Below are positions 7,693-46,238 of a stretch of DNA of 48,646 bases, piece by piece (within the stretch, counting starts at the first letter, position 1; each line of letters starts with the position of its first letter). A program made the translations under genes and the position numbers. Origin of the DNA: Alphaproteobacteria bacterium HGW-Alphaproteobacteria-11 (GTDB lineage: Bacteria; Pseudomonadota; Alphaproteobacteria; Parvibaculales; Parvibaculaceae); NCBI GenBank assembly GCA_002841195.1, contig PHEO01000003.1:1-48646 (forward strand), given 5' to 3'. The notes under the pieces are model-generated. The model had not been told where the DNA came from. It saw nothing but the letters and a program-made list of their open reading frames with translations, and made no database searches.

Positions 7693-8356
7693 GTAGCGAG
7701 TATCCGGCTCCCCGAACGGTATGCAAGAGCGGCTGTTCAAAATTCTTGTCGATCTTGGCTCTCAGCCGCGAGATATGCACATCGATCACGTTGGTCTGCG
7801 GATCGAAATGATACTCCCAGACGTTCTCCAGCAACATGGTCCGCGTGACAACCTGGCCGGCATGCTTCATCAGATATTCGAGCAGGCGGAATTCGCGGGG
7901 CTGAAGGTCGATTTCGGTGCCTTCGCGGACCACCTTGCGGGCGAGCAGGTCGATTTCGAGATTGCCGACCTGGAGGCGGGTGCGGACCTGATCGGGGTTG
8001 GAGCGGCGCACCAGCACTTCGATGCGGGCCAGCAGTTCGGCAAAGGCATAGGGCTTGGTCAGGTAGTCGTCGCCACCCGCCTTCAGGCCCTTGATGCGGT
8101 CGTCGACCTCGCCCAGCGCGGAGAGGAAGAGTACCGGCGTGCGCACGGCCTCCTCGCGCAGCGTCTCGACGACGCTCAACCCGTCGCGCTTGGGGAGCAT
8201 GCGGTCGACGATCATCACGTCGAAGGTGCTGGAGAAGGCCAAGGTCAGCCCTTCCTCGCCATCCGCCGCATGGTCGACGATGTGCCCGCTTTCGCGCAGG
8301 CCCTTCACGACATAGGCGGCGGCTTCCAGATCGTCCTCGATCACCAGAATGCGCAT
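7679..8356 (-). CDS. OmpR-family response regulator
   Basis: A 225-aa two-domain regulator. The receiver domain begins MRILVIEDD, has its phosphoacceptor Asp51 in IVDRMLP, the conserved Thr/Ser region VLFLSA and Lys in YLTKPYAFAEL. The C-terminal winged helix contains LQPREFRLLEYLMKHAGQVV and ends VRGAGYSLRAAD. The frame is open upstream to 8515, but the receiver fold begins only at the ATG at 8356, so that start is used. It lies 46 nt downstream of degP and overlaps the kinase gene, so degP, regulator and kinase look like one envelope-stress unit. An inverted repeat TTACA-N4-TGTAA upstream of degP is a candidate autoregulatory site. Confidence 0.95.
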   Translation of the reverse strand: MRILVIEDDLEAAAYVVKGLRESGHIVDHAADGEEGLTLAFSSTFDVMIVDRMLPKRDGLSVVETLREEAVRTPVLFLSALGEVDDRIKGLKAGGDDYLTKPYAFAELLARIEVLVRRSNPDQVRTRLQVGNLEIDLLARKVVREGTEIDLQPREFRLLEYLMKHAGQVVTRTMLLENVWEYHFDPQTNVIDVHISRLRAKIDKNFEQPLLHTVRGAGYSLRAAD

Positions 8357-8402
8357 CGTTCGATCAAACTCCCGTATCGCGGCGGCGGATAGGGCGCGGC
8401 GC

Positions 8403-9860
8403 CTAGGACTTGTTGAGCGACAGCGCGACGAAACGCTGCTGTTCCTCGCTGCGCAGAAGCAGAAGCACCGAGCTCTTGTCGGCCTTGCTCGCCTCTTCGA
8501 CGCCGGCCACGACATCGCTGGGCTTTTTCACATCCTTGCCGGAGACTTTCACGATCACGTCGCCGGGCCGGATGCCCTTTTCGGCCGCGTCGCTCGCGGG
8601 ATCGACGCTCTGCACCACGACGCCGTCCGGCGTCTGCGTCAGCGCAAGGCCGAGGCTCTTCGTGGCGGTGGCGGCCGGCGCTTCGCCCGGCTCCACGGCC
8701 GCGACATCGACCGTGTCGGGGAAAGTCCCGATGTTCGCCGTCAGCGTGCGGCGCTTGCCGTCGCGCCAGACAACGATCTTCGAGCGCGTGTCGGGCTTCA
8801 GTTCGGCGACGGTGCGGCTCACCGCGCGCACGTCTTCCATATCCTTGCCGTCGACGTTCAGAATGACGTCGCCGATCAGTACGCCAGCTTTTTTTGCCGG
8901 GCTGTCTTCGGCGACCTGCGCCACAAGCGCGCCTTGCGGCTTGTCGAGCGCGAGGGAGGATGCCATTTCGGGGTCGACCTGCTGGATTGTGACACCGAGC
9001 CAGCCGCGCGTCACGCGGCCGCTGTCCTTCAGGTCGGCGATGACCCTGGAGGCGATCGAGGCGGGAATGGCGAAGCCGATGCCGACGCTGCCGCCGCTCG
9101 GCGAGAAGATCGCCGTGTTGACGCCGATCACGTTGCCACGCACGTCGAAGGTCGGGCCGCCGGAATTGCCGCGGTTGATCGATGCGTCGATCTGGATGAA
9201 ATCGTCATAGGGGCCGGCGCCGATTTCGCGGCCGCGCGCCGAAACGATGCCGGTCGTCACCGTGCCGCCGAGACCGAAGGGATTGCCGACCGCCAGCACC
9301 CAGTCGCCAACGCGAACCGTGTCGGAATCGCCGAAGGCAACATAGGGCAGATCGGATTTGCTCTCGACCTTGACCAGCGCCAGGTCGGTCTTCGGATCGC
9401 GGCCGACGAGCTTGGCCGGCATTTCCGTGCCGTCGTCGCGGACCACCGTGATGTCCTTGCCGTCGCCGACGACATGATTGTTGGTCACGATGTAGCCGTC
9501 GGCCGAAATGATGAAGCCGGAGCCCAGCGCGGTCGCCTGACGGCCGCGCGGTGCGTTGCCCGGGTCCTGTGGCTGCAGATCGCGGAAGAAGCGCTCGAAG
9601 GGGCTGCCGGGCGGGAAAGGCAGATCGGGCGTGCCGGCCGGTGCGCGGACGGCGCGCTCCTCGGCAACGCGAATGCTGACCACGGCGGGGCTCACCTTCT
9701 CCACCAGGTCGGCGAAGCTCGGCAAACGTTCAAGCGCGGCGGTGGCGGGTGCGGCCGATCTTGTGTCGAGAGGCTGCGCCTGAACGCTCGGCGCAACGAG
9801 CGCCAGCGCCAACGCGCCACAGGCCATGGAAACGAAGTATCTCTTTCCGCCGGTCGTCAT
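8403..9860 (-). CDS. degP: Periplasmic Do/DegP-family serine endoprotease (MucD-like)
   Basis: A 485-aa secreted protease/chaperone that degrades or holds misfolded envelope proteins. A signal peptide (MTTGGKRYFVSMACGALALA, cleaved near VQA-QPLD) precedes the trypsin-like domain with catalytic triad His129 (NNHVV), Asp159 (KTDLALVK) and Ser233 (NRGNSGGP). Two PDZ domains follow: one around TRGWLGVTIQQV to DVILNVDGKDM, a second at LALTQTPDGVVVQ to GDVIVKVSGKDV. The frame continues upstream to 9938, but the ATG at 9860 is preceded by AGGAG nine bases before it and begins the signal peptide, so it is the likely start. The gene opens the degP-regulator-kinase-glnE run and lies 142 nt after ccmH. 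Confidence 0.95.
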   Translation of the reverse strand: MTTGGKRYFVSMACGALALALVAPSVQAQPLDTRSAAPATAALERLPSFADLVEKVSPAVVSIRVAEERAVRAPAGTPDLPFPPGSPFERFFRDLQPQDPGNAPRGRQATALGSGFIISADGYIVTNNHVVGDGKDITVVRDDGTEMPAKLVGRDPKTDLALVKVESKSDLPYVAFGDSDTVRVGDWVLAVGNPFGLGGTVTTGIVSARGREIGAGPYDDFIQIDASINRGNSGGPTFDVRGNVIGVNTAIFSPSGGSVGIGFAIPASIASRVIADLKDSGRVTRGWLGVTIQQVDPEMASSLALDKPQGALVAQVAEDSPAKKAGVLIGDVILNVDGKDMEDVRAVSRTVAELKPDTRSKIVVWRDGKRRTLTANIGTFPDTVDVAAVEPGEAPAATATKSLGLALTQTPDGVVVQSVDPASDAAEKGIRPGDVIVKVSGKDVKKPSDVVAGVEEASKADKSSVLLLLRSEEQQRFVALSLNKS

Positions 9861-10002: not shown

Positions 10003-10482
10003 TTATTCGGCCTTTTCGGACATGTCCGGGCCGGCCAGAGCCGCCAGCCGCGCCTCTTCCTCTGCCGTGAGGCGCGCACCTGCACCACCGGCGCGTGCGC
10101 GGCGCAACGTCAGCAGGGCAATGCCGCCGCCGACGATCAGCACGAGGCCGGGCGCCAGCCAAAGCAGCCATGTCTCGGGCCTGAAAGGCGGAGTCATCAG
10201 CACGAAATCGCCATAGCGGGCGACGACGAAATCGAAGACTTCGGCGTCGCTGTCGCCGGCGCGGATGCGGTCGCGCACCACCATACGGAGATCGCGCGCC
10301 AGTTCCGCATCGGAATCGTCGATCGACTGGTTCTGACACACCATGCAGCGGAGTTCTTTGGAGATGGCGCGGGCGCGGGCTTCCGCGGCGGGGTCGTCGA
10401 GCATCTCGCTCGGGTCGAGTGCGGCGAAGCCCGGCACGGCGAGCGCCAGCAAAAACAGGAATGCCGCGAGGCCCGCTCGCAT
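10003..10482 (-). CDS. ccmH: Cytochrome c maturation protein CcmH (CycL)
   Basis: A 159-aa periplasmic, membrane-anchored thioredoxin-like reductant of apocytochrome c. A signal/anchor (MRAGLAAFLFLLALAVPGFA) is followed by the family motif ELRCMVCQNQSI with Cys46 and Cys49, then RYGDFVLMTPPF and a C-terminal transmembrane helix (LLWLAPGLVLIVGGGIALL) with a charged cytoplasmic tail. The frame is open to 10548, inside ccmF, but the ATG at 10482 has a GGAG site and starts the signal peptide. It is the last gene of the ccm run here and sits 4 nt after ccmF. It works with CcmF in haem ligation to c-type cytochromes. Confidence 0.95.
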   Translation of the reverse strand: MRAGLAAFLFLLALAVPGFAALDPSEMLDDPAAEARARAISKELRCMVCQNQSIDDSDAELARDLRMVVRDRIRAGDSDAEVFDFVVARYGDFVLMTPPFRPETWLLWLAPGLVLIVGGGIALLTLRRARAGGAGARLTAEEEARLAALAGPDMSEKAE

Positions 10483-33530: not shown

Positions 33531-36500
33531 TCAGAGCGCGACGGTTGCGTGGCCGCCCGTGCCGCGGCCGAAGCGCGCGCTCAACTGGTAGACGGCGATT
33601 TCAAGCGACGGAAAATCCGCGCCGCCGAAATCGGCGATCTGGTCGGCGGTTGCGTATTCCGCTTGCTGCTCGCTCGCCGCGATGACGCGCTTCACCGTCG
33701 TGCCGTCGCGGATTTCGACTTCGTAGCGTTCCGTCTCTTCGGCGAGCGGCACGTCGAGCCCCGCCCAACTGTCGCCGCCGATGCGCGTGCGGCGGATCCA
33801 TGCGATCTCTATATGCCCGTCCGCGTCGCGCCGCGCCCGCAGATGCACAGGACTCAACGGACGCAGGCCGACGCCCACGAAGGCCCGCGTCACGCTCTGA
33901 TAGGTCGCGTCGTCGCGGGGCAGCGGCGCGGGCCCGTAGGCCCAGACGCGCGCGAGGCCGCGCTCGGCGTCGCTCAGCCCGAGTTCGCTCACCGCATCGT
34001 CGAGCAGCACGAAGCGGGCACCGGGCGCAAGCGGCGCGCGCATCGCCGCTTCGCTGCCCGCCTGTCCGCGCAACAACCCGGAAAGTTTCATCTCGCCCGC
34101 CGCGACCAGCAGCGCCTCGCGAAACTGCAATATCTCCCAGTCGCCGTCCGGCGTTTCGAGCGCGGCGGCATTGGCGCCCGCCAGCACGGACAGCGCATCG
34201 GCGCTTGCAAGCGCGCCGCTCGACAATTCGACGCTGAATGCGTTGACCTCGTCCCAGCGCCCGACCGGCCCCCGCATCAAGGGCGTCAGCGTCCGGCCGA
34301 GCGTCGCGGCGCGCGTCACCACGCGGTCGAAGGCAAAGCCCGCGCCGGCGCTCTTGAAAAAGGCGACGCCGCCCGGCCAGGGATCGGCTGCCACCGCGAC
34401 GCGCGGCGCATGCGGCGTCTCCTCGCCGGTCAGGAGCGGCAAGTCCATCAAGACGGCCAGCGGCGTGCCGTAACTTGGCGCGGCGGCCGGGCGGCTCGTG
34501 CGAACCGGCGCCGTCACCGGCCCGTAAAGGCTCGCCTCGCTCTCGACGCCGCGGGCCTCGCGCGCACCGGCATCCGAAATTTCAGTCAGGCGGATGCGCG
34601 CGGCGCGATGCGGCAGGTCGAGCGTCACCACATCGCCCGGATCGAGCGCCAGGAGGCTCGGCGGCAGCGACAGCGCCGCCCGCTCGCGTTCGCTCCACGC
34701 TTTCTGCATCCATATATCGGCGATGCCTTGCGCGGCGGCTTGCGTCAGCACCATCGGCAGCGTCGTTGCCGCCACGCGCTCGCTGCTGCCTGCAAGCCGC
34801 CTTGCCTCGACCGCCGCCTGGCGGTATTCGCCGCCGCCATCGATATAGGCGAGCTTGGCGGCGAGCGGCAGTTCGGTTTCCTGTCCGCGCGTCAGCGCAT
34901 AGCCGGGCGCGGCGCTGGCCTCGCCGACCGCCAGCATGCCGGGTATCAGCGCGACAACGGGCGCATCGCCGAAATGGCGGAAGCGGATCCGGCCTTGCGT
35001 CTCGGCCGCGTCGAAGAAATGCGCCAGCATCAGCGGTTCGAGCGCGGCGCGCGGCGACATGATGCGGTCGATGACGAAGCCCTCGACCGTGCCGCCGAGT
35101 TCGCCGACGTCGAAATCCTCAAAGCCCGCCTCGCGCATGATCGCGGCGGCAAGATCGGCGAGCGGTGCCGCGCCCATGCGGCCGTTCAGCCAGTGGCCGA
35201 GCCGCCAGTTCTCGCCATCGGACCAGATGTCGGTGCGATCCGGGAAGGCCGGAAAGGGCCGCGCGTCCCAGGTCCAGAAAAAGATTCGGGCCGGATCGAC
35301 CATGCGTCCGCCATAGACCGCCGAAACGGGATTGGCGCCCGCGACATGATCCGCATGGGCCGGGTTCCAGTACGACATCTGCGCCTCAATGAAGCGGCGC
35401 TGCATGAAATCGTCCCGTGTGCCGCGCGAGAAATGCGGCAGCGCACTCTCGGCCGATTTCGGATCGACAAACACATTGGGCTGGTTCGTTCCCTTGTCGA
35501 CCGCCGGGCAGCCGAGTTCGGTGAACCAGACCGGCTTCGATTGCGGCACCCAGGCGGTCGGCGTCGTGGCTTCCGCGCCGCCCGGCCGGTTGTAATGTTC
35601 GTTCTGCCACCAGGACTTGATGTCCTTCGCCCGCCACACCCAGGGCTTGCCATGCGCGCCGTCGGTGATCGGCGTGCGGATTTGCGCGGCGCGGTCTTCC
35701 TCGTTCGCATAATACCAGTCGAAACCCTCGCCGCCCGCGATGCGGCCGCGCAGATAATCGAGATCGTAGATCGAACGCCAGCCCGCCACGGCGTCGAGAT
35801 GCGCGTGGCCGTCGCGCCAGTCGGTCAGGGCTGCATAATTGTCGATGCCGATGAAATCGACATTGGTATCGGCCCAGAGCGGATCGAGATGAAAATGGAG
35901 ATCGCCCGTGCCATCGCCCGGCGCGTGGCCCGCATATTCCGACCAGTCGGCCGCATAGGAGATTTTCGTCGCGGGCCCGAGGATCGCGCGCACATCGGCG
36001 GCGAGCGTCTTCAGCGCCGCGACGGCCGGATAGGTGCCGGCCGCACTCCGCACTTGCGTCAGCGCCTTCAGTTCCGAGCCGATCAGGAAGGCGTCGACGC
36101 CGCCGGCATCGGCGCAAAGCTGCGCATAGTGCAGCACCATGCGGCGATAGGACCATTCGCTTCCCGTGGGCAATCCGCTGCCGAAGAATGCCGCGACCTG
36201 CGTTGCCGCCGCGCTTGTCTTGTCGGGCGTGCCGTCGCGGCCGGGCGCCGGGTCGCAGGTGATGCGCCCGCGCCACGGATAGGCGGGTTGCGCGGCCGCA
36301 TCGCTCCACGGGTCGGGCAGTTCGTTGCCGGCCGCCACATCCATCATCACGAAGGGATAAAAGACCGCCGCAAGCCCGCGCGCCTTGATGTCCTGCAACG
36401 CCCGCACAACCGATGCATCCGACGGCGTGCCGCCATAGGCCGGACGGCCATCGATCGTGCTGACGGTTTGCGCGGCGGCGCGCGTGAGCCCCGCGACCGA

Positions 36501-37439
36501 CCAGTGTCCCGGCTGCGTGATCTTGTGGCCGATTTCGACCTTCGGGCGAACCGTGCAATGCCCGCAGCGCAGATCGTCGCCGAACCAGCTCACCACCAGC
36601 GACACGGCCTTTGCGTTCGGGCAGGTCGCCTCGAGATCGTCGAGCGCCACGTGCCAGTCGGCGCGGGCATCGGATGTATGCACGTTCAGCGCCCGGCTCG
36701 ACGTCTCGCTCAGGATTTCGCGCTGCGGGCTCGTGTCGTAGACGAATTCGCCCGCACCGGGGATCATCGTCACCGCGCGCACCATGCCTTCGACTTCGCT
36801 CAACGCGCGGAACACCTCGAAGCTCAGCTGCGGAATGCGATTGCCGAAGGGCGTCACATCCATGTCCTCGAAGACGACATAGGCCGTGCCGCGACAGGCG
36901 GGCGCCGCGTCCGCGCCCTCGATCGCCTCGATCAGCGGGGCGGGCTGCTGCGTTTCGCCGCCCTTGTGCAGCCGCCATGTGAGGCCCGACAGCGGCAGCG
37001 GCTTGCCGTCGGCCCAGATGCGGCCGATGCGCGTCACCTCGCCCTCGCAGAGGCCGACCGCGAAGGAGACGCTGTAACTGTATTCGGTGACGGTCGCCGA
37101 CGATCCGCCGCCGCCCTTGCCGCCGCCTGACGAACGCCGGCTGACATGCTCCTTGTATTCGGTCGCCCAGATCACCTGGCCCGCCAGCCGCGCGCGCCCG
37201 TAAACGCGCGGCACCGGCGCGCCCTCGGTCGAGGCCATCACATGCAGATCGTTGAGGCGCGGGCCTTCGGCGCTCGCGGATGCGCCGAAAAGCTGGCCGT
37301 CGACGTAAGAGCCGAGCCCGGCACCGAGCGCGCCGCCCAGTGCCGCGCCGCTGATGGACGCGCCGAAAATGCTCAGGCCCGACGGCAAAAGCGCGCCGCC
37401 GATGGCCGAGCCGACGGAGGAGAGAACGAGTGTCGCCAT
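33531..37439 (-). CDS. GTA tail tip/host-interaction protein with TIM-barrel domain (g15 homologue)
   Basis: A 1302-aa protein homologous to the last structural protein of the R. capsulatus GTA. The N-terminal glycine-rich region (SVGSAIGGALLPSGLSIFGA) is followed by a segment with RVYGRARLAGQVIWATEYKE. From about residue 330 comes the GTA TIM-barrel-like domain (LQDIKARGLAAVFYPFVMMD ... KPVWFTELGCPAVDKGTNQP, near 643). A tail-tip domain (QGIADIWMQKAWSERERAAL) and a beta-rich C-terminus follow. The protein forms the tail tip that touches the recipient cell. It is intact and follows the NlpC/P60 gene after 3 nt. The opposing 1324-aa frame is a GC shadow. Confidence 0.93.
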   Translation of the reverse strand: MATLVLSSVGSAIGGALLPSGLSIFGASISGAALGGALGAGLGSYVDGQLFGASASAEGPRLNDLHVMASTEGAPVPRVYGRARLAGQVIWATEYKEHVSRRSSGGGKGGGGSSATVTEYSYSVSFAVGLCEGEVTRIGRIWADGKPLPLSGLTWRLHKGGETQQPAPLIEAIEGADAAPACRGTAYVVFEDMDVTPFGNRIPQLSFEVFRALSEVEGMVRAVTMIPGAGEFVYDTSPQREILSETSSRALNVHTSDARADWHVALDDLEATCPNAKAVSLVVSWFGDDLRCGHCTVRPKVEIGHKITQPGHWSVAGLTRAAAQTVSTIDGRPAYGGTPSDASVVRALQDIKARGLAAVFYPFVMMDVAAGNELPDPWSDAAAQPAYPWRGRITCDPAPGRDGTPDKTSAAATQVAAFFGSGLPTGSEWSYRRMVLHYAQLCADAGGVDAFLIGSELKALTQVRSAAGTYPAVAALKTLAADVRAILGPATKISYAADWSEYAGHAPGDGTGDLHFHLDPLWADTNVDFIGIDNYAALTDWRDGHAHLDAVAGWRSIYDLDYLRGRIAGGEGFDWYYANEEDRAAQIRTPITDGAHGKPWVWRAKDIKSWWQNEHYNRPGGAEATTPTAWVPQSKPVWFTELGCPAVDKGTNQPNVFVDPKSAESALPHFSRGTRDDFMQRRFIEAQMSYWNPAHADHVAGANPVSAVYGGRMVDPARIFFWTWDARPFPAFPDRTDIWSDGENWRLGHWLNGRMGAAPLADLAAAIMREAGFEDFDVGELGGTVEGFVIDRIMSPRAALEPLMLAHFFDAAETQGRIRFRHFGDAPVVALIPGMLAVGEASAAPGYALTRGQETELPLAAKLAYIDGGGEYRQAAVEARRLAGSSERVAATTLPMVLTQAAAQGIADIWMQKAWSERERAALSLPPSLLALDPGDVVTLDLPHRAARIRLTEISDAGAREARGVESEASLYGPVTAPVRTSRPAAAPSYGTPLAVLMDLPLLTGEETPHAPRVAVAADPWPGGVAFFKSAGAGFAFDRVVTRAATLGRTLTPLMRGPVGRWDEVNAFSVELSSGALASADALSVLAGANAAALETPDGDWEILQFREALLVAAGEMKLSGLLRGQAGSEAAMRAPLAPGARFVLLDDAVSELGLSDAERGLARVWAYGPAPLPRDDATYQSVTRAFVGVGLRPLSPVHLRARRDADGHIEIAWIRRTRIGGDSWAGLDVPLAEETERYEVEIRDGTTVKRVIAASEQQAEYATADQIADFGGADFPSLEIAVYQLSARFGRGTGGHATVAL

Positions 37440-37442
37440 GTT

Positions 37443-37886
37443 TCAGTCTTCCAAACCGGGAAAGCGGAACGCATAGGCGGTGCGCGCGCGCCACCAGCGG
37501 CCCATCGCCGTTTCGACAACCGCATGGCCCGACCAGGCGTGGATCATCCGGTCGGCGCCCGAGAGGATCGCCGCATGTTTCGCCGGGCCGCCGTCGCGCA
37601 TGCGGAACAGCATCACGTCGCCCGCGCCCGCATCCGCCGCCGCAATCTCGATCATGTGCCGCCGCGCGGCCTCGGCCATGGTCTCGCGCGCGCCGCCGCC
37701 CGGCCGCTCGGCCCAATCGGCCGTGTAGGGCGGCGGCAATTCGGGTTCGGCGCCCACCGCCTCGCGCCAGACGCCGCGCACAAGGCCGAGGCAATCCGTG
37801 CCCGCGCTTTTGAGGCTTGCCTGATGGCGATAGGGCGTGCCGATCCAGCCGCGCGCCGCGGCCACGATGTCGTCGCGTCTTGTCAT
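37443..37886 (-). CDS. GTA NlpC/P60 cell wall peptidase (g14 homologue)
   Basis: A 147-aa cysteine peptidase of the NlpC/P60 fold. The catalytic Cys32 lies in SAGTDCLGLVRGVW, a candidate His104 in PAKHAAILSG and a third polar residue near His116 (MIHAWSGHAVVE). In the GTA it is attached to the tail and cuts peptide cross-links so DNA can pass the recipient cell wall. It follows the hub gene by 1 nt and precedes the tip gene by 3 nt, the standard GTA order. Confidence 0.93.
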   Translation of the reverse strand: MTRRDDIVAAARGWIGTPYRHQASLKSAGTDCLGLVRGVWREAVGAEPELPPPYTADWAERPGGGARETMAEAARRHMIEIAAADAGAGDVMLFRMRDGGPAKHAAILSGADRMIHAWSGHAVVETAMGRWWRARTAYAFRFPGLED

Positions 37887-37887
37887 G

Positions 37888-38772
37888 TCAGTTCCGCCTG
37901 CCGCCGTCGTTCGGACCCTGGCCGGCGCGCGCCACCACGAAGTCGTTGCCGGGCATATGCGGGAAGCCGCGAAAATTGATGCCGTTCGAAAACTTCGCGC
38001 GGCAGGTCGCGAACTGCTTGTCGCATCCCGCCGTCACCGTGAACGTGTCGCCTTCCGCGACCGGCCGCGCCATGCGCCGCCAGAGTTCGAGCCGTGCGCC
38101 TTCCGGCGCAAGCGCATGCGCCTTCACTTCCATCGCCGCGCCTCCGTTGGCGCCGCTCGTGAAAACCAGCTTGCCGCGTTCGAACCATCCGGCGGTAAAG
38201 CCGCCAAGTCCGCTTGCCACAATCACACGGTCGTCCTCGGCGCTTGTCACGACGCCCTCGCCGCGAAAACCCGATGAAGAAAGATCGATGCCGCAGCGCG
38301 CATCGCCCAGATCCGCGTCGCAGCCATACTGGAAAATCCGGCCCGTCGGCTGGTTGAGCCGGTGCGCGAGGCCGCGCAGCTCGGCGGTGAAACTTCCGCG
38401 CCCGCGCGTCACCTCGCCGATATTTCCCTTGCGCAGCAACACGCGCTCCGCCGGCGCCTGCCAGTTGACGCGCCAGATCTCGACCTCGGCATCGTCATAG
38501 AGACCGGCCGCGAGGTCGCCCTCCTCGATCCGCGCCGAGGACAGCGCGCCCGCGACATCGAGATTGTCGACCGCGAGCCCCGAGGAATGTTCGAGCGCCG
38601 ACGCGGTGAAGCCGCCCGCCGCCTCGTATGTCGTGCCGCCGAATGCGATGTCGCGGTCGTGATCGGTGAAGCCCATCGTCGCGCCGTCGGCGCGCGTCAG
38701 CTTCCAGCAGGTCGCCAGCGCCGTCGCGCCCGACGCCAGATGCGCTTCGAGGCCGGGGGGAAGGGTTTTCAT
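37888..38772 (-). CDS. GTA baseplate hub protein, DUF2163 family (g13 homologue)
   Basis: A 294-aa protein of the DUF2163/phage BR0599 family. The N-terminus LPPGLEAHLASGATALATCW and TDHDRDIAFGGTTYEA are characteristic, as is the C-terminal pattern with four cysteines (FQYGCDADLGDARCGI; TAGCDKQFATCRAKF). Phage lambda gpL, its functional equivalent, holds an iron-sulfur cluster on four cysteines, so the same may hold here (inference). It lies 3 nt after the distal tail gene and 1 nt before the peptidase gene. Confidence 0.93.
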   Translation of the reverse strand: MKTLPPGLEAHLASGATALATCWKLTRADGATMGFTDHDRDIAFGGTTYEAAGGFTASALEHSSGLAVDNLDVAGALSSARIEEGDLAAGLYDDAEVEIWRVNWQAPAERVLLRKGNIGEVTRGRGSFTAELRGLAHRLNQPTGRIFQYGCDADLGDARCGIDLSSSGFRGEGVVTSAEDDRVIVASGLGGFTAGWFERGKLVFTSGANGGAAMEVKAHALAPEGARLELWRRMARPVAEGDTFTVTAGCDKQFATCRAKFSNGINFRGFPHMPGNDFVVARAGQGPNDGGRRN

Positions 38773-38775
38773 CGG

Positions 38776-39408
38776 TCACATCCTCACTTCGACCACCGGC
38801 ACCGCCGGAACGCTGCCAGCGTCGAAAGCACCGAGGTCGATGTCGAGAAAATCGGTGTCGAAGCGCACCGGCACGTCGAACTCAAAGCCCGCGGTCACGC
38901 TCGCGCCGTCCGCCGGCGGCGCCGCGAATGTCACGATGCCGGTCGCATGATCGACCGAAAAATCCGTGCCCGCTGTTTTCTCGACGCCGCCGACCGCAAC
39001 ACGCACGCTGCCCGCGACCGGCTTTGCAATTTCGCGCGTATAGCTCGCGCCGCCCGACGCATAGGTCTTGACGAGCTGAAACGCCGTGCGCGTTCCGTCG
39101 CCCGCACCGAGCGCCTGATCCGTCGCGGCGATGCCCGCGCCCGGCGCACCGCTCTTCCAGTCGGCACGGTCCTTCCAGCGAAAGCCGTGCAACCGTCCGT
39201 GCCGCGCCTCGAAAAATTCGATCAGCGCATGAATGTCGTCGAGCGCGCGAAGCCCGTAACCGGCATTCCAGCGCCGCCGCGATCCGGCCCAGGGGCTGTT
39301 GCGCTCCTCATGGCCCGACCCCAGCGTCACAATCTCGGTGCGCCGCTCCGGCCCGCCCGACGAACCGAAAGCGATGTCGAGCGGAAAGCGGATTTCGTGA
39401 AAGGCCAT
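38776..39408 (-). CDS. GTA distal tail protein, DUF2460 family (g12 homologue)
   Basis: A 210-aa protein beginning MAFHEIRFPLDIAFGSSGGP, the hallmark start of the DUF2460/TIGR02217 family, with GYGLRALDDIHALIEFFEAR and HGRLHGFRWKDRADWKSG next. It joins the tail tube to the baseplate. The frame continues 77 codons upstream to 39639, but those codons come from a repeat element with inverted ends (39444-39653), so they are not part of the ancestral protein. The element separates it from the tape measure gene, the only large gap in this otherwise tightly packed section. Confidence 0.93.
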   Translation of the reverse strand: MAFHEIRFPLDIAFGSSGGPERRTEIVTLGSGHEERNSPWAGSRRRWNAGYGLRALDDIHALIEFFEARHGRLHGFRWKDRADWKSGAPGAGIAATDQALGAGDGTRTAFQLVKTYASGGASYTREIAKPVAGSVRVAVGGVEKTAGTDFSVDHATGIVTFAAPPADGASVTAGFEFDVPVRFDTDFLDIDLGAFDAGSVPAVPVVEVRM

Positions 39409-39443
39409 GTCGGGATTCCCATTTTCCGGTTCGCGTTCTTTTC

Positions 39444-39653
39444 TCCACCCTCCCCCATCCTTGGCGGCTTGTCCGCCAAGGCGAACAAGCTGAGGGGGAG
39501 GGTCGAAATTTTCGAGCGTCAGCGAGAACAATTTCGGGGAGGGGTAAGCGTCGAACCTCAGCGCATAATCGATCGCGCGTCGTCCGCCGATATCGGAGCA
39601 CCCCTCCCCAAACGGCTTCCAGCCGTTTGACCCTCCCACAGGGGGAGGGTGGA
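39444..39653. repeat. 210-bp element with 13-bp terminal inverted repeats inside the GTA cluster
   Basis: The ends are TCCACCCTCCCCC (39444-39456) and GGGGGAGGGTGGA (39641-39653), perfect inverse copies. Inside are further paired stretches: CTTGGCGG/CCGCCAAG (39460-39480) forming a hairpin, GAGGGGGAGGGT near the left end, and CACCCCTCCCC plus AACGGCTTCCAGCCGTT (39611-39627) near the right. No transposase is encoded; the frame through it is accidental. It fills the 268-bp gap between the tape measure and distal tail genes and looks like a MITE-like or palindromic dispersed repeat. A second copy was not seen in this window. Confidence 0.7.
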
Positions 39654-39676
39654 ACGAAAAGTACCTTGCGCGCTCC

Positions 39677-40306
39677 TCACAAATTCCTCGTTCCCCGTTT
39701 CGTCGCGCGGGCGAGCATTGCGGCGATCTGCGATTCCGAACGGCGGAAACTTTCGGCGTCGGCCGCCGTCACGTTGAAGGTCACGTTGATCGCGCGGCCG
39801 CCGCCTTCGGTCGCCACGCCGAGGCGGCCGTCGGCGCCGCGCTTCAGCGGCAATATCGCTTCCGGCCCCGCCTCGCCCGCGAGCCCCGCGCCGCCGCGCA
39901 GCGGAAACAGCAACGGGCTGTTGACGACGCCCCCTTTCGCAAAAGGCATCACGCGGCCATCGGCAAAGGCGTTTCCCTTCGCGCTGCCGACGATGCCGCC
40001 GACAAGACCGCTCAAGCCGCCCGCCACCGCGCCCGAAATCGAACGCGTCACGCTTTCAAGCGCGAGGCGCGAAATATCGAGCGCCAGTTTCCGCAACACG
40101 TCGGAAAGCGAGCGCCCCTTCAGCGCGATGCCGTCGAAGGCCGACGACAGCGCCCGGCCGAAATCACGCCCGCCGGCGCCGGCGCGGCGATAATCCTCGG
40201 TCACGCCGCGCAGCGTGCGCTGCGTTTCAAGGCCGAAGGCGAGCGTCGCCGCGGCCGCGTCCTCCATGGCGCGCGCCGTCGCGGCCGGGTCGTTGTCTGG
40301 GGTCAT
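39677..40306 (-). CDS. GTA tape measure protein (g11 homologue)
   Basis: A 209-aa short tape measure protein, which sets the length of the short GTA tail. Helical N-terminus (ATLAFGLETQRTLRGVTEDY), a glycine-rich middle with hydrophobic character (SISGAVAGGLSGLVGGIVGS), then the C-terminal FADGRVMPFAKGGVVNSP and LAGEAGPEAILPL motif found in many tape measures. Length is close to the about 220 aa of R. capsulatus g11. It starts 10 nt after the small chaperone gene. Confidence 0.9.
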   Translation of the reverse strand: MTPDNDPAATARAMEDAAAATLAFGLETQRTLRGVTEDYRRAGAGGRDFGRALSSAFDGIALKGRSLSDVLRKLALDISRLALESVTRSISGAVAGGLSGLVGGIVGSAKGNAFADGRVMPFAKGGVVNSPLLFPLRGGAGLAGEAGPEAILPLKRGADGRLGVATEGGGRAINVTFNVTAADAESFRRSESQIAAMLARATKRGTRNL

Positions 40307-40316
40307 GCTCTCTCTT

Positions 40317-40508
40317 TCAGTCCGGGAACCGTCGCATCAATCCTTCAAGCTCGCCGCGCGCCATCGGCGCTTGCCCGCCCGGTGCGAAGGCCCGTGCCGC
40401 TGCCGCAAGCTCCGGCAGCGTCAGCCGCCAGAAAATTTCGGGTGCGAGGCGCAGGCGTCCGAGGCCAAGCGTCATCGCTTCGTCCCAGGGAAAACGCGCT
40501 TCTCTCAT
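40317..40508 (-). CDS. GTA tail assembly chaperone-like small protein (g10.1 homologue)
   Basis: A 63-aa protein (LGLGRLRLAPEIFWRLTLPE ... RGELEGLMRRFPD) matching the short phage tail-assembly chaperone family PF09550 found after g10 in GTAs. The ATG overlaps the previous stop by 4 nt. It probably coats the tape measure during tail assembly. Confidence 0.85.
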   Translation of the reverse strand: MREARFPWDEAMTLGLGRLRLAPEIFWRLTLPELAAAARAFAPGGQAPMARGELEGLMRRFPD

Positions 40509-40834
40509 TTCATCTCCGCGCCACCGCCAAAGGTCGCCGACAAAAGATCGGCGACAATGGCGATGAAGCCCGCCGCGCCGCCTTCGGCCGTCAGCCGCGC
40601 CACCTCGGCGTCCGAAATCTCCGCGCCCGCGCCGCGCAAGCCGGCGCCGATCACGCGCACCGCATCCATCGCCGAAATGCGGCCCGTCTCGAAGCGCGCC
40701 GCCAGCGCCAGCATGTCCTCGCCGCCGAAGGCTTGCTCAAGTTCCGCCAACGCCCCCAGTGTCAACACAAGCACACGCCGCTCGCCGCCAAGCCAGGCCT
40801 CGATCTCGCCGCGATGTCTGTTGGCCATCGTCAC
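40505..40834 (-). CDS. GTA family tail chaperone (g10 homologue)
   Basis: A 109-aa protein of the gene-transfer-agent tail chaperone family (PF11836 type): GEIEAWLGGERRVLVLTLGA LAELEQAFGGEDMLALAARF, then ISAMDAVRVIGAGLRGAGAE. It sits between the major tail gene (4-nt overlap) and the small chaperone (4-nt overlap), exactly as in RcGTA. Likely start ATG 40834 (MTMANRHRGE); the second ATG 6 nt later is an alternative. Confidence 0.88.
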   Translation of the reverse strand: MTMANRHRGEIEAWLGGERRVLVLTLGALAELEQAFGGEDMLALAARFETGRISAMDAVRVIGAGLRGAGAEISDAEVARLTAEGGAAGFIAIVADLLSATFGGGAEMK

Positions 40835-41244
40835 GCGCCCGTGAACGAAATCGCGCCGGCGCTTTCGAGCGCCAGGTCGAATGTCACTTCGCCGTCATGC
40901 TCGCCGGAAAATTCCAGCGCGACGATCTGGAACGGGCCTTGAGCCGTTCCGAAGTCGGGGATCACCACCTGCCAGTCGCGGATCGCGCCGTCGAAGAAAA
41001 TCTGGCGCACGCTCGCATCCGAGCCTGCATCCTTGAAGATGCCGCGCCCGGTCACGCCGGCCGAACGCACGCCCGCGCCCTCCAGCAGCTCGCGCCAGCG
41101 CCCGGCCGATTCCGCATGGGTGATATCGACGGGCCGTGCGTTGAAGGCGAGCGCGCGCGAGCGCAGCCCCGCAACGGTTGCAAAGCTGCCCGTGCCGGTC
41201 TCGTCGAGCTTCACCAGCAGGTCCTTGCCTTTCTGGGCGGTCAT
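40831..41244 (-). CDS. GTA major tail tube protein (g9 homologue)
   Basis: A 137-aa protein of the TP901-1-type phage major tail family: MTAQKGKDLLVKLDETGTGS FATVAGLRSRALAFNARPVDITH, with GRGIFKDAGSD and the C-terminal FSGEHDGEVTFDLALESAG. It builds the tail tube. It begins 16 nt after the tail terminator gene and overlaps the chaperone gene by 4 nt. Ribosome site GAAAGGAAAG is present before the ATG. Confidence 0.93.
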   Translation of the reverse strand: MTAQKGKDLLVKLDETGTGSFATVAGLRSRALAFNARPVDITHAESAGRWRELLEGAGVRSAGVTGRGIFKDAGSDASVRQIFFDGAIRDWQVVIPDFGTAQGPFQIVALEFSGEHDGEVTFDLALESAGAISFTGA

Positions 41245-41260
41245 TACGCTTTCCTTTCGT

Positions 41261-41662
41261 TCATGTTTGTTCTGTCACCGCGCGGAAGCGGATCGTGCCG
41301 CGCCAGGTCGTGCCGTCCGGCTCGCGCCGCGTTTCGGCGTCGAGAAAGCGCAGATTGACCAGCGCATGGCCGTCCAGCGTCAGCGCCGCGTCGTGCAACG
41401 CCGCGCGCACCGCGCCGAGGATCGCCTTTGCTTGTGTCCGCCCGCCGCCGCGCGTGAAGGCATGAAACGAAAGCCGGTGTTCGGCGCCCGCGCCCTCGCC
41501 CGCGCTCCAGTCGCGCATTGCGCTTTCGCCGAGCGTCAGGTAGGGCATCGCTACGTCGTCCGGCGGGTTGTCGTGAAGGCGCGTCCCGACCAGCACGGCG
41601 AGCGCCGCATCGGCGGCCAGCGCCGCATGGACCGCTTTCTGCAAGGCGAAGTCCGCACTCAT
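41261..41662 (-). CDS. GTA tail terminator protein, DUF3168 family (g8 homologue)
   Basis: A 133-aa DUF3168 protein: MSADFALQKAVHAALAADAA, VGTRLHDNPPDDVAMPYLTLGES and HAFTRGGGRTQAKAILGAVR. DUF3168 proteins cap the tail and link it to the head. The open frame extends to 42007 across the head-closure gene, but ATG 41662 overlaps that gene's stop by 4 nt and starts the domain. Confidence 0.93.
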   Translation of the reverse strand: MSADFALQKAVHAALAADAALAVLVGTRLHDNPPDDVAMPYLTLGESAMRDWSAGEGAGAEHRLSFHAFTRGGGRTQAKAILGAVRAALHDAALTLDGHALVNLRFLDAETRREPDGTTWRGTIRFRAVTEQT

Positions 41663-41979
41663 TGGCCGCCCTCCTCGCAATCGATCAGCAGCATGTGCCG
41701 CTTGCCGTCGATGTCGCACATGGTCCGGATATCGAGCGCGCGGCCCTGCCACACGAGCCGCATGGCCGCGGTCACGTCGCTCCGGTAGCGGATCAACACC
41801 TGCAGGCGGCGGCGCGCCTCCATGCGTTCGCCGGCGGGTCGCTCGCGCCCCGACAGCGCCATGACGCTCGCCCAGACGGTTGCGACGTCGCTCCACGTCA
41901 CATCCGCGCCGCCGGCGCCGTCCGGCGTCCGGACCGGCACCTGCAGCGTCACGCGCTCGCGCATCGCGCCCGCGTTCAC
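41659..41979 (-). CDS. GTA head closure protein (g7 homologue)
   Basis: A 106-aa phage head closure/stopper protein (SPP1 gp16-like): MRERVTLQVPVRTPDGAGG ADVTWSDVATVWASVMALSGRE and RRRLQVLIRYRSDVTAAMRLV. It plugs the connector below the portal. It overlaps the connector gene and the tail terminator gene by 4 nt each, so translation is coupled. Confidence 0.92.
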   Translation of the reverse strand: MNAGAMRERVTLQVPVRTPDGAGGADVTWSDVATVWASVMALSGRERPAGERMEARRRLQVLIRYRSDVTAAMRLVWQGRALDIRTMCDIDGKRHMLLIDCEEGGQ

Positions 41980-42539
41980 AGCCGCACCCGCTTGTAGGGC
42001 GCGACAAGCGCCGTGATCGTGCGCGGCAGTTCGTTGCCGAGGCCCACCGGCTCGCGGTTTTCGAACCAGTGCGCGACCAGAAACAGCAGCGCCTGTTTCA
42101 GCGGCAGCGGCACATCGGCGGCGGCGCCATAGCCCGCGGTGAAATCCACCGCGATGCCCGCCAGCCGCGTCGCCGGCTTCGGCCAGGCCTGACCGCGCTT
42201 GGCGGCAAGGCGCGGCGGTTCGCCGGCGAGGTCGGTTTCGTAGAAGCCCGGATCGATCGGCAGCATCGCGCCGCTGAGGCTTGCGACCTTCACCGCCGTC
42301 ACGGCGGCAACCGGCGCAAGCGGCAGCCGCACGGGGTCCGCCGGCCAGTCGTCCAGTGTCAGCCGCCAGCTTTGCGTCACGAAGGCGCGCCGCGTCTCGG
42401 CTTCAAGCGCCGCGCGGGCCGCCGCGATCAGCGCCTCGACGAGCGGGTTCTCCTCCGTCCCGTCGAGGCGCAGATGCGCGCGGGCTTCCGCCAGCGTCAC
42501 CGGCTCGGCGGCCGGGCCTGTCAGAAGCGCCAGCGTCAT
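41976..42539 (-). CDS. GTA head-tail connector protein (g6 homologue, gp6-like)
   Basis: A 187-aa connector of the phiE125 gp8/HK97 gp6 type: PVTLAEARAHLRLDGTEENP LVEALIAAARAALEAETRRAF is the family hallmark, and YGAAADVPLPLKQALLFLVAHWFENREPV lies near the end. It forms the ring that sits on the portal. Here it is kept although the portal gene has been lost. It overlaps the preceding 144-aa gene by 4 nt. Confidence 0.92.
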   Translation of the reverse strand: MTLALLTGPAAEPVTLAEARAHLRLDGTEENPLVEALIAAARAALEAETRRAFVTQSWRLTLDDWPADPVRLPLAPVAAVTAVKVASLSGAMLPIDPGFYETDLAGEPPRLAAKRGQAWPKPATRLAGIAVDFTAGYGAAADVPLPLKQALLFLVAHWFENREPVGLGNELPRTITALVAPYKRVRL

Positions 42540-42970
42540 GGCGTCACCGGCTTCAGATGCGCGTGCGCCAGCAGCGCCAGCGCCGCAATCGGCGTGCCGT
42601 CCTCATGCGTGCCGGTCAGGCGGACCGCGACGCGCGTATAGCGCGCCGGGCCCACATAACCGATCCGGTAGTCGCGCTGGTCGCCCGCCACATCGTCGAT
42701 GACGGCGAAAATGCCGTCCTCGCCGAGCGGGCCGCCCAGCACCTCGTGCTGCGCCGTCACCGGCTGCCAGTCGCCGCCGTTCTCCGAAACCTCGATCGCG
42801 CAAGCGATGGCGCGTTCCGGCGACAGCTCCTCGCCGGTCGCACCGATGCAGACGATATGCTCCACCGCCTCGAAGCCCTTGCGGTCGACCGGCGCGCCGT
42901 AGCGCGTGGCGGTCGTCAGCGCGGGGTCGAGGGTCTGCACGGTGGCGATGCCGCTATGAATGTCGCGCAT
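42536..42970 (-). CDS. Extra 144-aa protein between capsid and connector genes
   Basis: A 144-aa protein without a recognised family (MRDIHSGIATVQTLDPALTT; SENGGDWQPVTAQHEVLGGP; YRIGYVGPARYTRVAVRL). It is predicted to be beta-rich, like a small head-decoration or tail domain. RcGTA has no gene at this place. It starts 10 nt after the capsid stop with AGGAACGAG as ribosome site and overlaps the connector gene by 4 nt, so it is part of the structural operon. A capsid-decorating role is inference. Confidence 0.8.
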   Translation of the reverse strand: MRDIHSGIATVQTLDPALTTATRYGAPVDRKGFEAVEHIVCIGATGEELSPERAIACAIEVSENGGDWQPVTAQHEVLGGPLGEDGIFAVIDDVAGDQRDYRIGYVGPARYTRVAVRLTGTHEDGTPIAALALLAHAHLKPVTP

Positions 42971-42980
42971 CTCGTTCCTC

Positions 42981-44294
42981 CTATTCGGCGAATTTCAGAA
43001 ACTTGATCGCCTCGAAGTTCTGCACCCCGCCGCCGACGCGCTTGGTGGTGTAGAACAGCACGTAGGGCTTGGCGCTGTAGGGGTCGCGCAGCACGCGCAC
43101 GCCGAGCCGGTCGACGATCAGGTAGCCGCGCTTGAAATCGCCGAAGGCGATGGCCGGCGCATTGGCGCCGATCGACGGCATCTCCTCGGCCTCCGTCACC
43201 GGATAGTTCAGCAGCGTCGGCGGCTGACCGGCGGCCAGCGCCGGCTGCCAGAGATAATTGCCATCGACGTCCTTGAACTTGCGGATCACCGATTGCGTGG
43301 CGCGGTTCATCACGAAGCGGCCATTGGCGCGGTAGCCGGCCTTCACCGCATAGATGAGGTCGATCAGCTTGTCGGACGGATTGGTCGCCGGGAAAGCGCC
43401 GGCCGCGCCCGTCGCGACGAAGCCGAGCTTGCCCCATTCCCAACTCGCATCGGCCACCATCTCGTAGTCGAGGAAGCCGCGCGGCTTTTTGACGCCGTCG
43501 CCGGCGACGAATGCGGCGCCTTCCTGTTCGGCAAAGGCGGTCTGCACCTCTTCGGCCAGCCACTGGTCGATATTGACGGCGGCGTCGTCGAGCAGCGTCG
43601 AGGTCGCGGCCGGCATCGCGTAGAGCTCCATCGCCGGAAACTCGATTTCCGACAGCGTCGGCGTCGCGGTTTGCGCGCGCGCTTCCGTTTCGCCGACCCA
43701 GCCCGTTTGCGGGCCGCCGGTCGTGAACGGCTTCTTGTAGCTCGCGGCGCCGATCTGGCGGACGCCGGCGATGGCGCGTATCGGCGAGACTTCCGAGACG
43801 ATGCGGTCGATCAGCCTTTCGGTCTCGACCGGCACGAGGTAGCCGCCGTCCGGTCCGGGTTGCGTCGACAGCGCCTTCGCCTCCAGCCCGCGCAGCTCAT
43901 GCGCCTCGCCCTTGCGCACATAATGTTCGAAGGCGCGCTTGTGTTCGCGCGCCGCGGCGGGGCCGGCGCGTTCGCCGCCGAGTTCGGGCCGGGCCGCCGC
44001 CAGCGCCAGGTCCTCGACCTTCTTCGTTTGCCGGTCGAGGGCGCGGTCGATGCGGGCGAGCTTCTCGTCGGTCAGCGGATCGGCCGCCACCTTGCGCTCG
44101 ATTTCGCCAAGCCGCTCGTCGTTCGCCTCCTTGAAGGCCTCGAAGGACGTCAGCAGCTCGTCCATCGCCTCGCGCATTTCGGCGCCGGTCGCATCGGCGC
44201 TCTTTCGCTCGCCTTTGGCATCGGGCGCGCTCTTGCGTTCCGGTTCCTTCAGCGAGGCGCCGACGCGCGGCAGGTCGTTCATCCAGAGGGACAT
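42981..44294 (-). CDS. GTA HK97-type major capsid protein (g5 homologue)
   Basis: A 437-aa capsid protein. The first 130 residues (MSLWMNDLPRVGASLKEPER, then a charged coiled coil EMREAMDELLTSFEAFKEAN) form the scaffolding part that the prohead protease normally removes. The HK97 fold follows: LSTQPGPDGGYLVPVETERLIDRI, GWVGETEARAQTATPTLSEI, FVAGDGVKKPRGFLDYEM and FGDFKRGYLIVDRLGVRVLR. The start is ATG 44294 with GGAG six bases upstream. The reading frame is open back to 45596 because of the upstream deletion, which gives an apparent 871-aa terminase-capsid fusion; the separate ribosome site argues that the capsid is made on its own. Confidence 0.9.
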   Translation of the reverse strand: MSLWMNDLPRVGASLKEPERKSAPDAKGERKSADATGAEMREAMDELLTSFEAFKEANDERLGEIERKVAADPLTDEKLARIDRALDRQTKKVEDLALAAARPELGGERAGPAAAREHKRAFEHYVRKGEAHELRGLEAKALSTQPGPDGGYLVPVETERLIDRIVSEVSPIRAIAGVRQIGAASYKKPFTTGGPQTGWVGETEARAQTATPTLSEIEFPAMELYAMPAATSTLLDDAAVNIDQWLAEEVQTAFAEQEGAAFVAGDGVKKPRGFLDYEMVADASWEWGKLGFVATGAAGAFPATNPSDKLIDLIYAVKAGYRANGRFVMNRATQSVIRKFKDVDGNYLWQPALAAGQPPTLLNYPVTEAEEMPSIGANAPAIAFGDFKRGYLIVDRLGVRVLRDPYSAKPYVLFYTTKRVGGGVQNFEAIKFLKFAE

Positions 44295-44323
44295 GGGTTT
44301 CTCCGTTCGGGGGGTGAAAGGTT

Positions 44324-44425
44324 TCAGCTTCGGAAAAGACGCGCCGCCGCCCGCATCGCGCGAACGAGAGCCGCATCGGCGCTCCGTGCCGCCTTGACGG
44401 CGCTGACGCGCGCCTCCGGCAGCAG
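44324..44425 (-). pseudogene. 3' remnant of the GTA prohead protease gene (g4 homologue)
   Basis: In the frame offset from terminase, the last 33 codons before a TGA at 44326-44324 read LLPEARVSAVKAARSADAAL and end AARLFRS. P-(x)2-ARV-(x)2-VK is the usual C-terminal signature of HK97-family prohead proteases in GTAs, and the position just before the capsid start is the normal one. The catalytic N-terminal part is missing. The remnant is joined directly to the large terminase gene. Confidence 0.7.
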
Positions 44426-44426
44426 C

Positions 44427-45545
44427 GGCCACGGGCTCGGCGCGCAGCCGCTTGCCCCGCGTCGCATGGACAAGCCGGATCGGCGCGTCGGGCATTTCCT
44501 GGCGCATCACCTGCGCGACCATCTCGCCGCCGTTGTTCGCCTCGGCGACGATCCGGTCGGCCTCATGGGCGCGGTAGCAGCCGGCGACGCGCTTTGCCCA
44601 GGCAAGCGGCGAGAGGCGGCCCATCGAGCGGTCGTCGATGACGTAAGCCCGGCCGTCGGCGCCGAGCCCCGCGCAGACAATGCCGCATTCGTCGGCGCCG
44701 GTGCCGCTCGAGGCCGGCGGATCGACCGCCACCACCACGCGCACGAAATCGCGCGCGTCGCGCAGGCGCCCCCGCTCGATCGTTTCGCGCGTCCACAGCG
44801 CGTCCGGATTGTCTTCGATCAGCTCGGCGTCGAGTTCCTGCCGCCCGAGCCGCGTGCCTTCGTAGCGCGCGATCACGCTGCGGAAAAATCCATCGGCGAG
44901 GTTGACGCGGTTTGCCGCCGTCGCCGCCCGGGTCACCGCCGTTCTTTCGTCGGCGATCAGCCGTTTCACCAGCGGCGCGGGCCGTGGCGTCGTCGTCATC
45001 ACCTGCCGGGGGCGTGTGCCCAGCCGCAGCCCGAATTGCAGCATGTCCCAGGCGGCCTCGGCGTGGCGCCATTTCGCCAGCTCGTCGCCCCATGCCGCGT
45101 CGAATTGCGGGCCCCGCAGGCTTTCCGGTTCGCCCGCCGAAAACACATAAGCCACCGCGCCGTTCGGCCAGAGCAGCCGCTTGCGCGACACTTCGTAGCG
45201 CGGCCGCATGTCGGCGCGCGCCACCCCGCGCAATCCCGACGGCCCGTCGATCATCACCTCGCGCACATCCGACAGCGTTTCGCCGACCAGCGCGATGCGG
45301 CCCGCGCGGCCGCTCTCGACCTCTTCCATCACCCATTCGGCGCCGGCCCGCGTTTTCCCGGCGCCGCGTCCGCCCAGCATCAGCCAGGTCGTCCAGCCGG
45401 TTTGCGGCGCGAGCTGGTCGGGCCGCGCCCAGAAGCGCCAGCAGGCTTCAAGCGTCCGCGCCTCGCGCGGCGTCAGCTTCTGCGTGAAGCCGGTCCTGAT
45501 CGGCGGCGGCAAAGCAGCGAGCGAAGCGATCCCGAAGTCCGGCAT
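44427..45545 (-). pseudogene. GTA large terminase, C-terminally truncated by deletion (g2 homologue)
   Basis: The first 373 residues of a TerL protein remain. The ATPase domain is intact: Walker A LMLGGRGAGKT (58-65), Walker B QFDAAWGDELAKW with acid pair Asp154/Glu155, and coupling motif MTTTPRP. The nuclease domain begins (VVAVDPPASSGTGADECGIV, Asp275; VAEANNGGEMV, Glu336) but stops at KRLRAEPVA, before the last acidic motif (DxVDAL type), and about 60 further residues are lost. Reading continues out of frame through the protease remnant and then in frame into the capsid. The start, ATG 45545, overlaps the small terminase gene by 98 nt; the frame is open to 45596. DNA packaging by this protein is unlikely. 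Confidence 0.85.
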
Positions 45546-46059
45546 GGATTCGCTCGTCTTCGTCGCGCCGCTTTTTTCTGTCGCTGTCGGGGTCATTCTT
45601 TTTCGCCTGCCGCGCCGCCTGTTCGATTTCGTGAAGCTTGTCGATCGAGCGCACCAGCGAGGCGAGCCGCCGCGCCTGCCGCTCGCCTTCCGCGTCGTCG
45701 CGCGTCATCCGCCGCTGTCCCTCGACATCGGCGATCTCGCGGGCAATCAATTTCGTCAGTCGCGCCGCCAGCGCCTCGGCATCCTCGGGCAGGTCGCCGC
45801 CGGTTTTCGGCGTCGGCGCCACCGCAACCTCGGCGCGTTTCGGCCAATTGTCGCGCTGGGCGCGCGCCGTGATCTTCTGAAACTTGATCGCGTGTTCGTC
45901 CGCTATTTCTTGGAGCCGCTTGGCGCCGATTTCATAGTCGGCGCGAATGCGGTCCCAGTCGATGCCCGCATCGTCCGGCTTGCGCATACGCGGCTTCGCC
46001 GCAGGGCGCACACGCGGCTTCGCCGCGGGCGGCGCCTTCACCTTCCGCTTCGTCGTCAT
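45448..46059 (-). CDS. Putative terminase small subunit/DNA-recognition protein (g1 position)
   Basis: A 203-aa basic protein at the first position of the GTA cluster. The N-terminus is Lys/Arg/Pro/Ala-rich (MTTKRKVKAPPAAKPRVRPA). A helix-turn-helix-like stretch follows (YEIGAKRLQEIADEHAIKFQ KITARAQRDNWPKRA), as in small terminase subunits, then a charged coiled coil (RRLASLVRSIDKLHEIEQAA). ATG 46059 has GGACGG upstream. It overlaps the large terminase start by 98 nt, so its last 32 codons are read in two frames. The family assignment rests on the helix-turn-helix-like segment and on position. Confidence 0.7.
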   Translation of the reverse strand: MTTKRKVKAPPAAKPRVRPAAKPRMRKPDDAGIDWDRIRADYEIGAKRLQEIADEHAIKFQKITARAQRDNWPKRAEVAVAPTPKTGGDLPEDAEALAARLTKLIAREIADVEGQRRMTRDDAEGERQARRLASLVRSIDKLHEIEQAARQAKKNDPDSDRKKRRDEDERIHAGLRDRFARCFAAADQDRLHAEADAARGADA

Positions 46060-46238
46060 GTTCCGTCCGGGGTACAATTCTGGAGATGGACTGTAAGTGG
46101 GTATCGAGCGCAACGCTGACAACTGGGGATATCTTCTGGCGCGCGAAAAAATGCGGGTGGAGCGGTTGGCGCGCTACCAAATCCCCCCATCCCCGCCGCG
46201 ACTCGGCTATGCTGCCCCCGCATCACCCCGGAGCCCAC

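Follow-up and report, generated by a model that had tools for sequence, protein, structure and literature searches.

A highly probable recent deletion spanning portal and prohead protease genes in an otherwise well-preserved RcGTA-like cluster

In the RcGTA-like head-tail cluster studied here, the gene for the large terminase (TerL) runs straight into the tail of a prohead protease gene, which raises the question of whether this joint is a real deletion or a product of assembly, and what it would mean for the production of GTA particles. The window we analyzed is an entire contig (C161, 48,646 bp) of G000, a draft genome of 3.25 Mb in 398 contigs that is 98.6% complete and has Parvibaculum MAGs as its closest named relatives in the public collection. 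Two relatives, G001 (contig L031) and G022, served as references with an intact GTA cluster. Apart from a gap of about 3 kb, the contig is collinear with G001 at ~94.5% identity and differs from it at three further places, each up to ~240 bp.

The cluster lies at positions 33531 to 46122 on the minus strand, as do all of its parts, and its genes are numbered by their order. Upstream of TerL, a gene at 45448 to 46122 occupies the g1 position and is a putative small terminase by gene order only; it has no Pfam match. TerL itself, at 44425 to 45542, is 96 to 97% identical to the intact TerL of G001 and G022. Its ATPase domain is whole (Terminase_6N complete in Pfam) and its nuclease domain is without the last third, as Terminase_6C is matched over profile positions 2 to 100 of 155, versus 2 to 153 in the intact G001 protein. 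The HK97-type major capsid gene (42981 to 44294; PF05065, E value 9e-96) is intact, has its own ribosome-binding site, and is 98 to 99% identical to its counterparts in G001 and G022. The remaining head-tail genes, g6- to g15-like (33531 to 42970), have uninterrupted frames and are 89 to 99% identical to those of the same two relatives, as judged from Pfam families and alignments. They include connector, head completion, tail tube, and GTA-gp10 families, and the later tail genes are also present. Collinearity of the remaining genes with the intact G001 and G022 clusters, together with the GTA-gp10 match, makes this an RcGTA-like cluster by descent.

The joint itself is abrupt. TerL is collinear with its relatives up to 44425, and from 44424 on the sequence is that of the protease C terminus, LPEARVSAVKAARSADAALVRAMRAAARLFRS, with a stop codon at 44324 to 44326. 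By protein match, protease residues 147 to 182, the last 36 of 182, lie at 44327 to 44434; the remnant with its stop spans 44324 to 44424, and the catalytic part is absent. The capsid ATG follows at 44294, preceded by GGAGAAACCC with a GGAG ribosome-binding site. A sequence-only reading of the window had described this direct switch from TerL to protease tail and then capsid, as well as a terminase without its nuclease end, and both descriptions hold. It had also called for a comparison of the joint with the closest relatives; that comparison, by blastn collinearity and flanking sequence, found G001 and G022 intact and placed the breakpoints within TerL and the protease. In the relatives, the TerL side of the breakpoint reads GTGGCCGC|GCTTTAC and the protease side reads TTTTCCGA|TGCTGCC, while the window reads GTGGCCGC|TGCTGCC.

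Relative to G001, 3163 bp are missing at the joint, and relative to G022, 2964 bp, rather than the roughly 2 kb first estimated. In G001 (L031), TerL ends at 7318 and is followed by a repeat-bearing spacer, the portal gene (7751 to 8965; PF04860, E value 6e-90), a small gene, a second repeat-bearing spacer, and the protease gene, which ends at 10407 (PF04586, E value 3e-34), with the capsid gene starting at 10437. The G000 locus therefore lacks the TerL nuclease end, the portal, the small gene that follows it, and the catalytic part of the protease, in agreement with the sequence-only reading. As a side observation, the two G001 spacers (L031:7318-7751 and L031:9519-9811) carry repeats of which short pieces occur in dozens of copies in G000.

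One way in which the cluster might still function is that the missing genes lie elsewhere in the genome and GTA production continues; the sequence-only reading had listed this option, and GTA genes are indeed spread over several loci in R. capsulatus (PMC6854486). A search of the whole draft for portal (PF04860) and protease (PF04586) families returned no matches, and the G001 portal protein as query likewise found nothing in the 3.25 Mb. In a protein search with the protease, only the last 36 residues matched, at this locus, and TerL has a single match. The missing ~3 kb had one copy of its protease-tail flank in G000 and otherwise only scattered short repeats. Given a draft that is 98.6% complete, supply from another locus is very improbable. 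For a genome in draft form, these searches amount to strong but incomplete evidence that the segment is absent.

A second concern is that the joint is an artefact, with the two places linked by a chimeric molecule and the intact 3-kb segment lost in assembly or binning. The draft is split into 398 contigs, several related MAGs have contig breaks in this region, and the relatives carry repeats in the segment that G000 lacks. The structure of the joint speaks against such an origin. Homology across it amounts to 0 to 4 bp, with a CCG common to both sides just beside the joint, and there is no shared word at the joint itself; within 150 bp of the two G001 breakpoints, no shared word exceeds 8 bp, the longest being out of register. 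The absence of a shared word makes a de Bruijn overlap misjoin very unlikely, and the same 0 to 4 bp argue against recombination between repeats; neither a direct repeat nor a repeated element occurs at both breakpoints. The intergenic repeats that the relatives carry in the missing segment are not at the joint, and an origin by recombination between them was rejected, as the breakpoints lie inside the TerL and protease coding sequences, away from these repeats. Slippage or short-homology recombination on a TGGCCGC match, which the sequence-only reading had proposed, was also discarded: such a word is absent from the protease side in the relatives. A joint with zero overlap is not expected from assembly on shared k-mers, so it was probably carried by molecules present in the library.

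The bin holds no contig with the intact path, and the same 30-bp joint recurs in IMGVR_UViG_3300029890_000044, from a second assembly whose contig ends differ. Over 8.7 kb this IMG/VR contig has no base substitutions relative to the window, and its 10 mismatch columns are N; the reads of the two assemblies may thus be shared. Its runs of N and gaps, the loss of 25 bp within the capsid gene, and its other ends mark it as a separate assembly, perhaps from overlapping reads. A literature search on the IMG sample number found no paper. On this evidence, it is unlikely that the joint is an artefact or that the assembly merely skipped a segment. The 25 bp that the IMG/VR contig (L101) lacks in the capsid gene are those at 44112 to 44136, a frameshift that reflects either a low-coverage assembly error or further decay in the population.

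The IMG/VR contig stops 37 bp past the joint, which gives some weight to the artefact reading and bears on another explanation that overlaps with a real deletion. Low coverage, or a branching assembly graph caused by mixed alleles or a chimera, may account for its ending here. If alleles are mixed, the deletion would be real, and deleted and intact forms would coexist in one population, the deleted cells being non-producers that still receive DNA, that is, cheaters. Pseudogenized GTA clusters have been suggested to be recent cheaters (PMC10883770), and DprA and ComEC families encoded in G000 could allow receipt of DNA. These two families occur in most bacteria, however, and are hence little informative, and an intact allele of this strain was found neither in the bin nor in IMG/VR. 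There, neither the TerL flank nor the protease flank of this strain occurred in any other contig, and no contig bearing TerL or portal belonged to the strain, the closest portal being 78% identical. We regard a mixed population as a doubtful reading, and it is similarly improbable that the contig records a freshly arisen non-producer allele that shares its natural population with producers or is sweeping through them. Were it so, the cheater model of GTA loss would become directly observable.

We conclude that the locus most likely carries a single, real, and recent deletion of ~3 kb, made by end joining and private among the searched genomes, which would have abolished DNA packaging in an otherwise well-preserved RcGTA-like cluster. 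In this scheme, end joining without a homologous repeat would have removed the end of TerL and the portal, together with the small gene after it and the bulk of the prohead protease. Only one other stretch longer than 1 kb is missing from G000 relative to G001 in the ~93 kb that could be compared in total, a sample that extends beyond the contig, and it lies at a 77-bp repeated overlap.

Of the three genes expected in a functional producer, portal and prohead protease have no family match genome-wide (PF04860 and PF04586), and TerL is incomplete, with Terminase_6C cut at position 100 of 155. Heads lacking portal, TerL nuclease, and protease would be neither packaged nor matured, leaving a GTA non-producer; judged by gene content, working GTA particles are very probably no longer made. 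In RcGTA without its small terminase, production stalls: heads and portals form, DNA stays unpackaged, and tails are unattached (PMC6854486). By analogy, a cluster without portal, protease, and TerL nuclease end should be impaired to the same degree or more.

The scar also leaves a long reading frame. An in-frame TerL-capsid frame of 871 codons (42981 to 45596) crosses the joint, and could be taken, with the intact tail genes, to mean that the cluster has been repurposed, through the fusion protein or through DNA-free heads and tails with a new use. The frame is better explained by chance, as the sequence-only reading had supposed: of the three possible phases at the joint, one was bound to be in frame, and the fused phase of the window has no stops over 43 codons. 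The capsid gene keeps its own start, RcGTA without packaging yields no tailed particles (PMC6854486), and a comparable fusion was not seen among the searched relatives. Repurposing is therefore extremely unlikely. The fusion frame may be translated, probably as a by-product, and the long "TerL-capsid" frame of an automatic annotation should be read as a deletion scar, not as a new protein.

How long ago the deletion occurred was approached through the state of the remaining genes. Compared with G001 and G022, the remaining GTA genes that were checked contain no frameshifts. Counting private nonsynonymous and synonymous changes on the G000 branch gives 88:196 for the GTA genes and 60:146 for the controls (Fisher P value of 0.69). 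On the other two branches, the count for these GTA genes is 123:397 (P value of 0.03), but control genes are also raised on the G000 branch, so no specific relaxation is evident. Two entries in this test, "c25304" and "gp1like," seem to be misframed or misaligned; without them, the values are ~0.39 versus 0.25 on the G000 branch and ~0.30 versus 0.20 on the other two, a similar ratio. Relaxed selection gave no clear signal and was rejected as a clock for the loss. Intact frames without specific relaxation indicate either that the loss is recent or that the test is underpowered; we favor the former, and the loss looks young. The sequence-only reading had judged the rest of the cluster free of decay and the deletion recent, and its view gains support from intact relatives, an otherwise clean cluster, no second copy, and the same joint in another assembly.

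Among 61 genomes (G000 included), TerL occurs in 44, a protein related to the G001 portal in 40, and a protease relative in 38. Nearly all relatives whose contigs cover the region have both portal and protease. Within the genus, considering genomes with TerL and the following region on one contig, the portal is absent only from G000 and G019. In G019 (contig C11, L037:1-2683), TerL is likewise cut in the nuclease domain and portal and protease are likewise absent, yet the ~356-codon stub is truncated near residue 341 and adjoins unrelated genes, and the capsid and g15-like gene are gone as well: this genome, rated 100% complete, had no match to portal, protease, capsid, or g15-like gene. The breakpoints of G000 and G019 differ, and GTA has been lost independently, at least twice in the genus.

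With intact clusters of the Rhodobacter capsulatus type, including those of the Parvibaculum relatives G001 and G022, the G000 cluster shares its order, GTA-gp10 tail family, HK97 capsid, and TerL family; it differs by the deletion of the portal gene, the small gene behind it, the catalytic part of the protease, and the nuclease end of TerL. Pseudogenization and loss of GTA clusters have been reported in several alphaproteobacterial lineages (PMC10883770). G000 resembles these clusters in having lost essential head genes, so that a non-producer is expected, but unlike them it shows one clean deletion with the other genes intact and was apparently caught early. The deletion thus adds a clean case, apparently an early one, of an already known process, and a loss at this stage, with the packaging module deleted and the other genes intact, would be useful for testing whether non-producers spread in populations.

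Two minor observations concern the relatives. Two short G026 contigs, C295 and C57 (L191 and L192), carry two capsid variants in one MAG, probably from two strains, and both stop inside the protease gene; a recurrent joint there was rejected, as both simply end within that gene at contig edges. An intergenic element of ~165 bp lies at 39494 to 39659 of the window, between the g11- and g12-like genes, and similar elements occur at other places in the GTA regions of G013, G022, and G026, so a small repeat apparently moves from spacer to spacer within the cluster.
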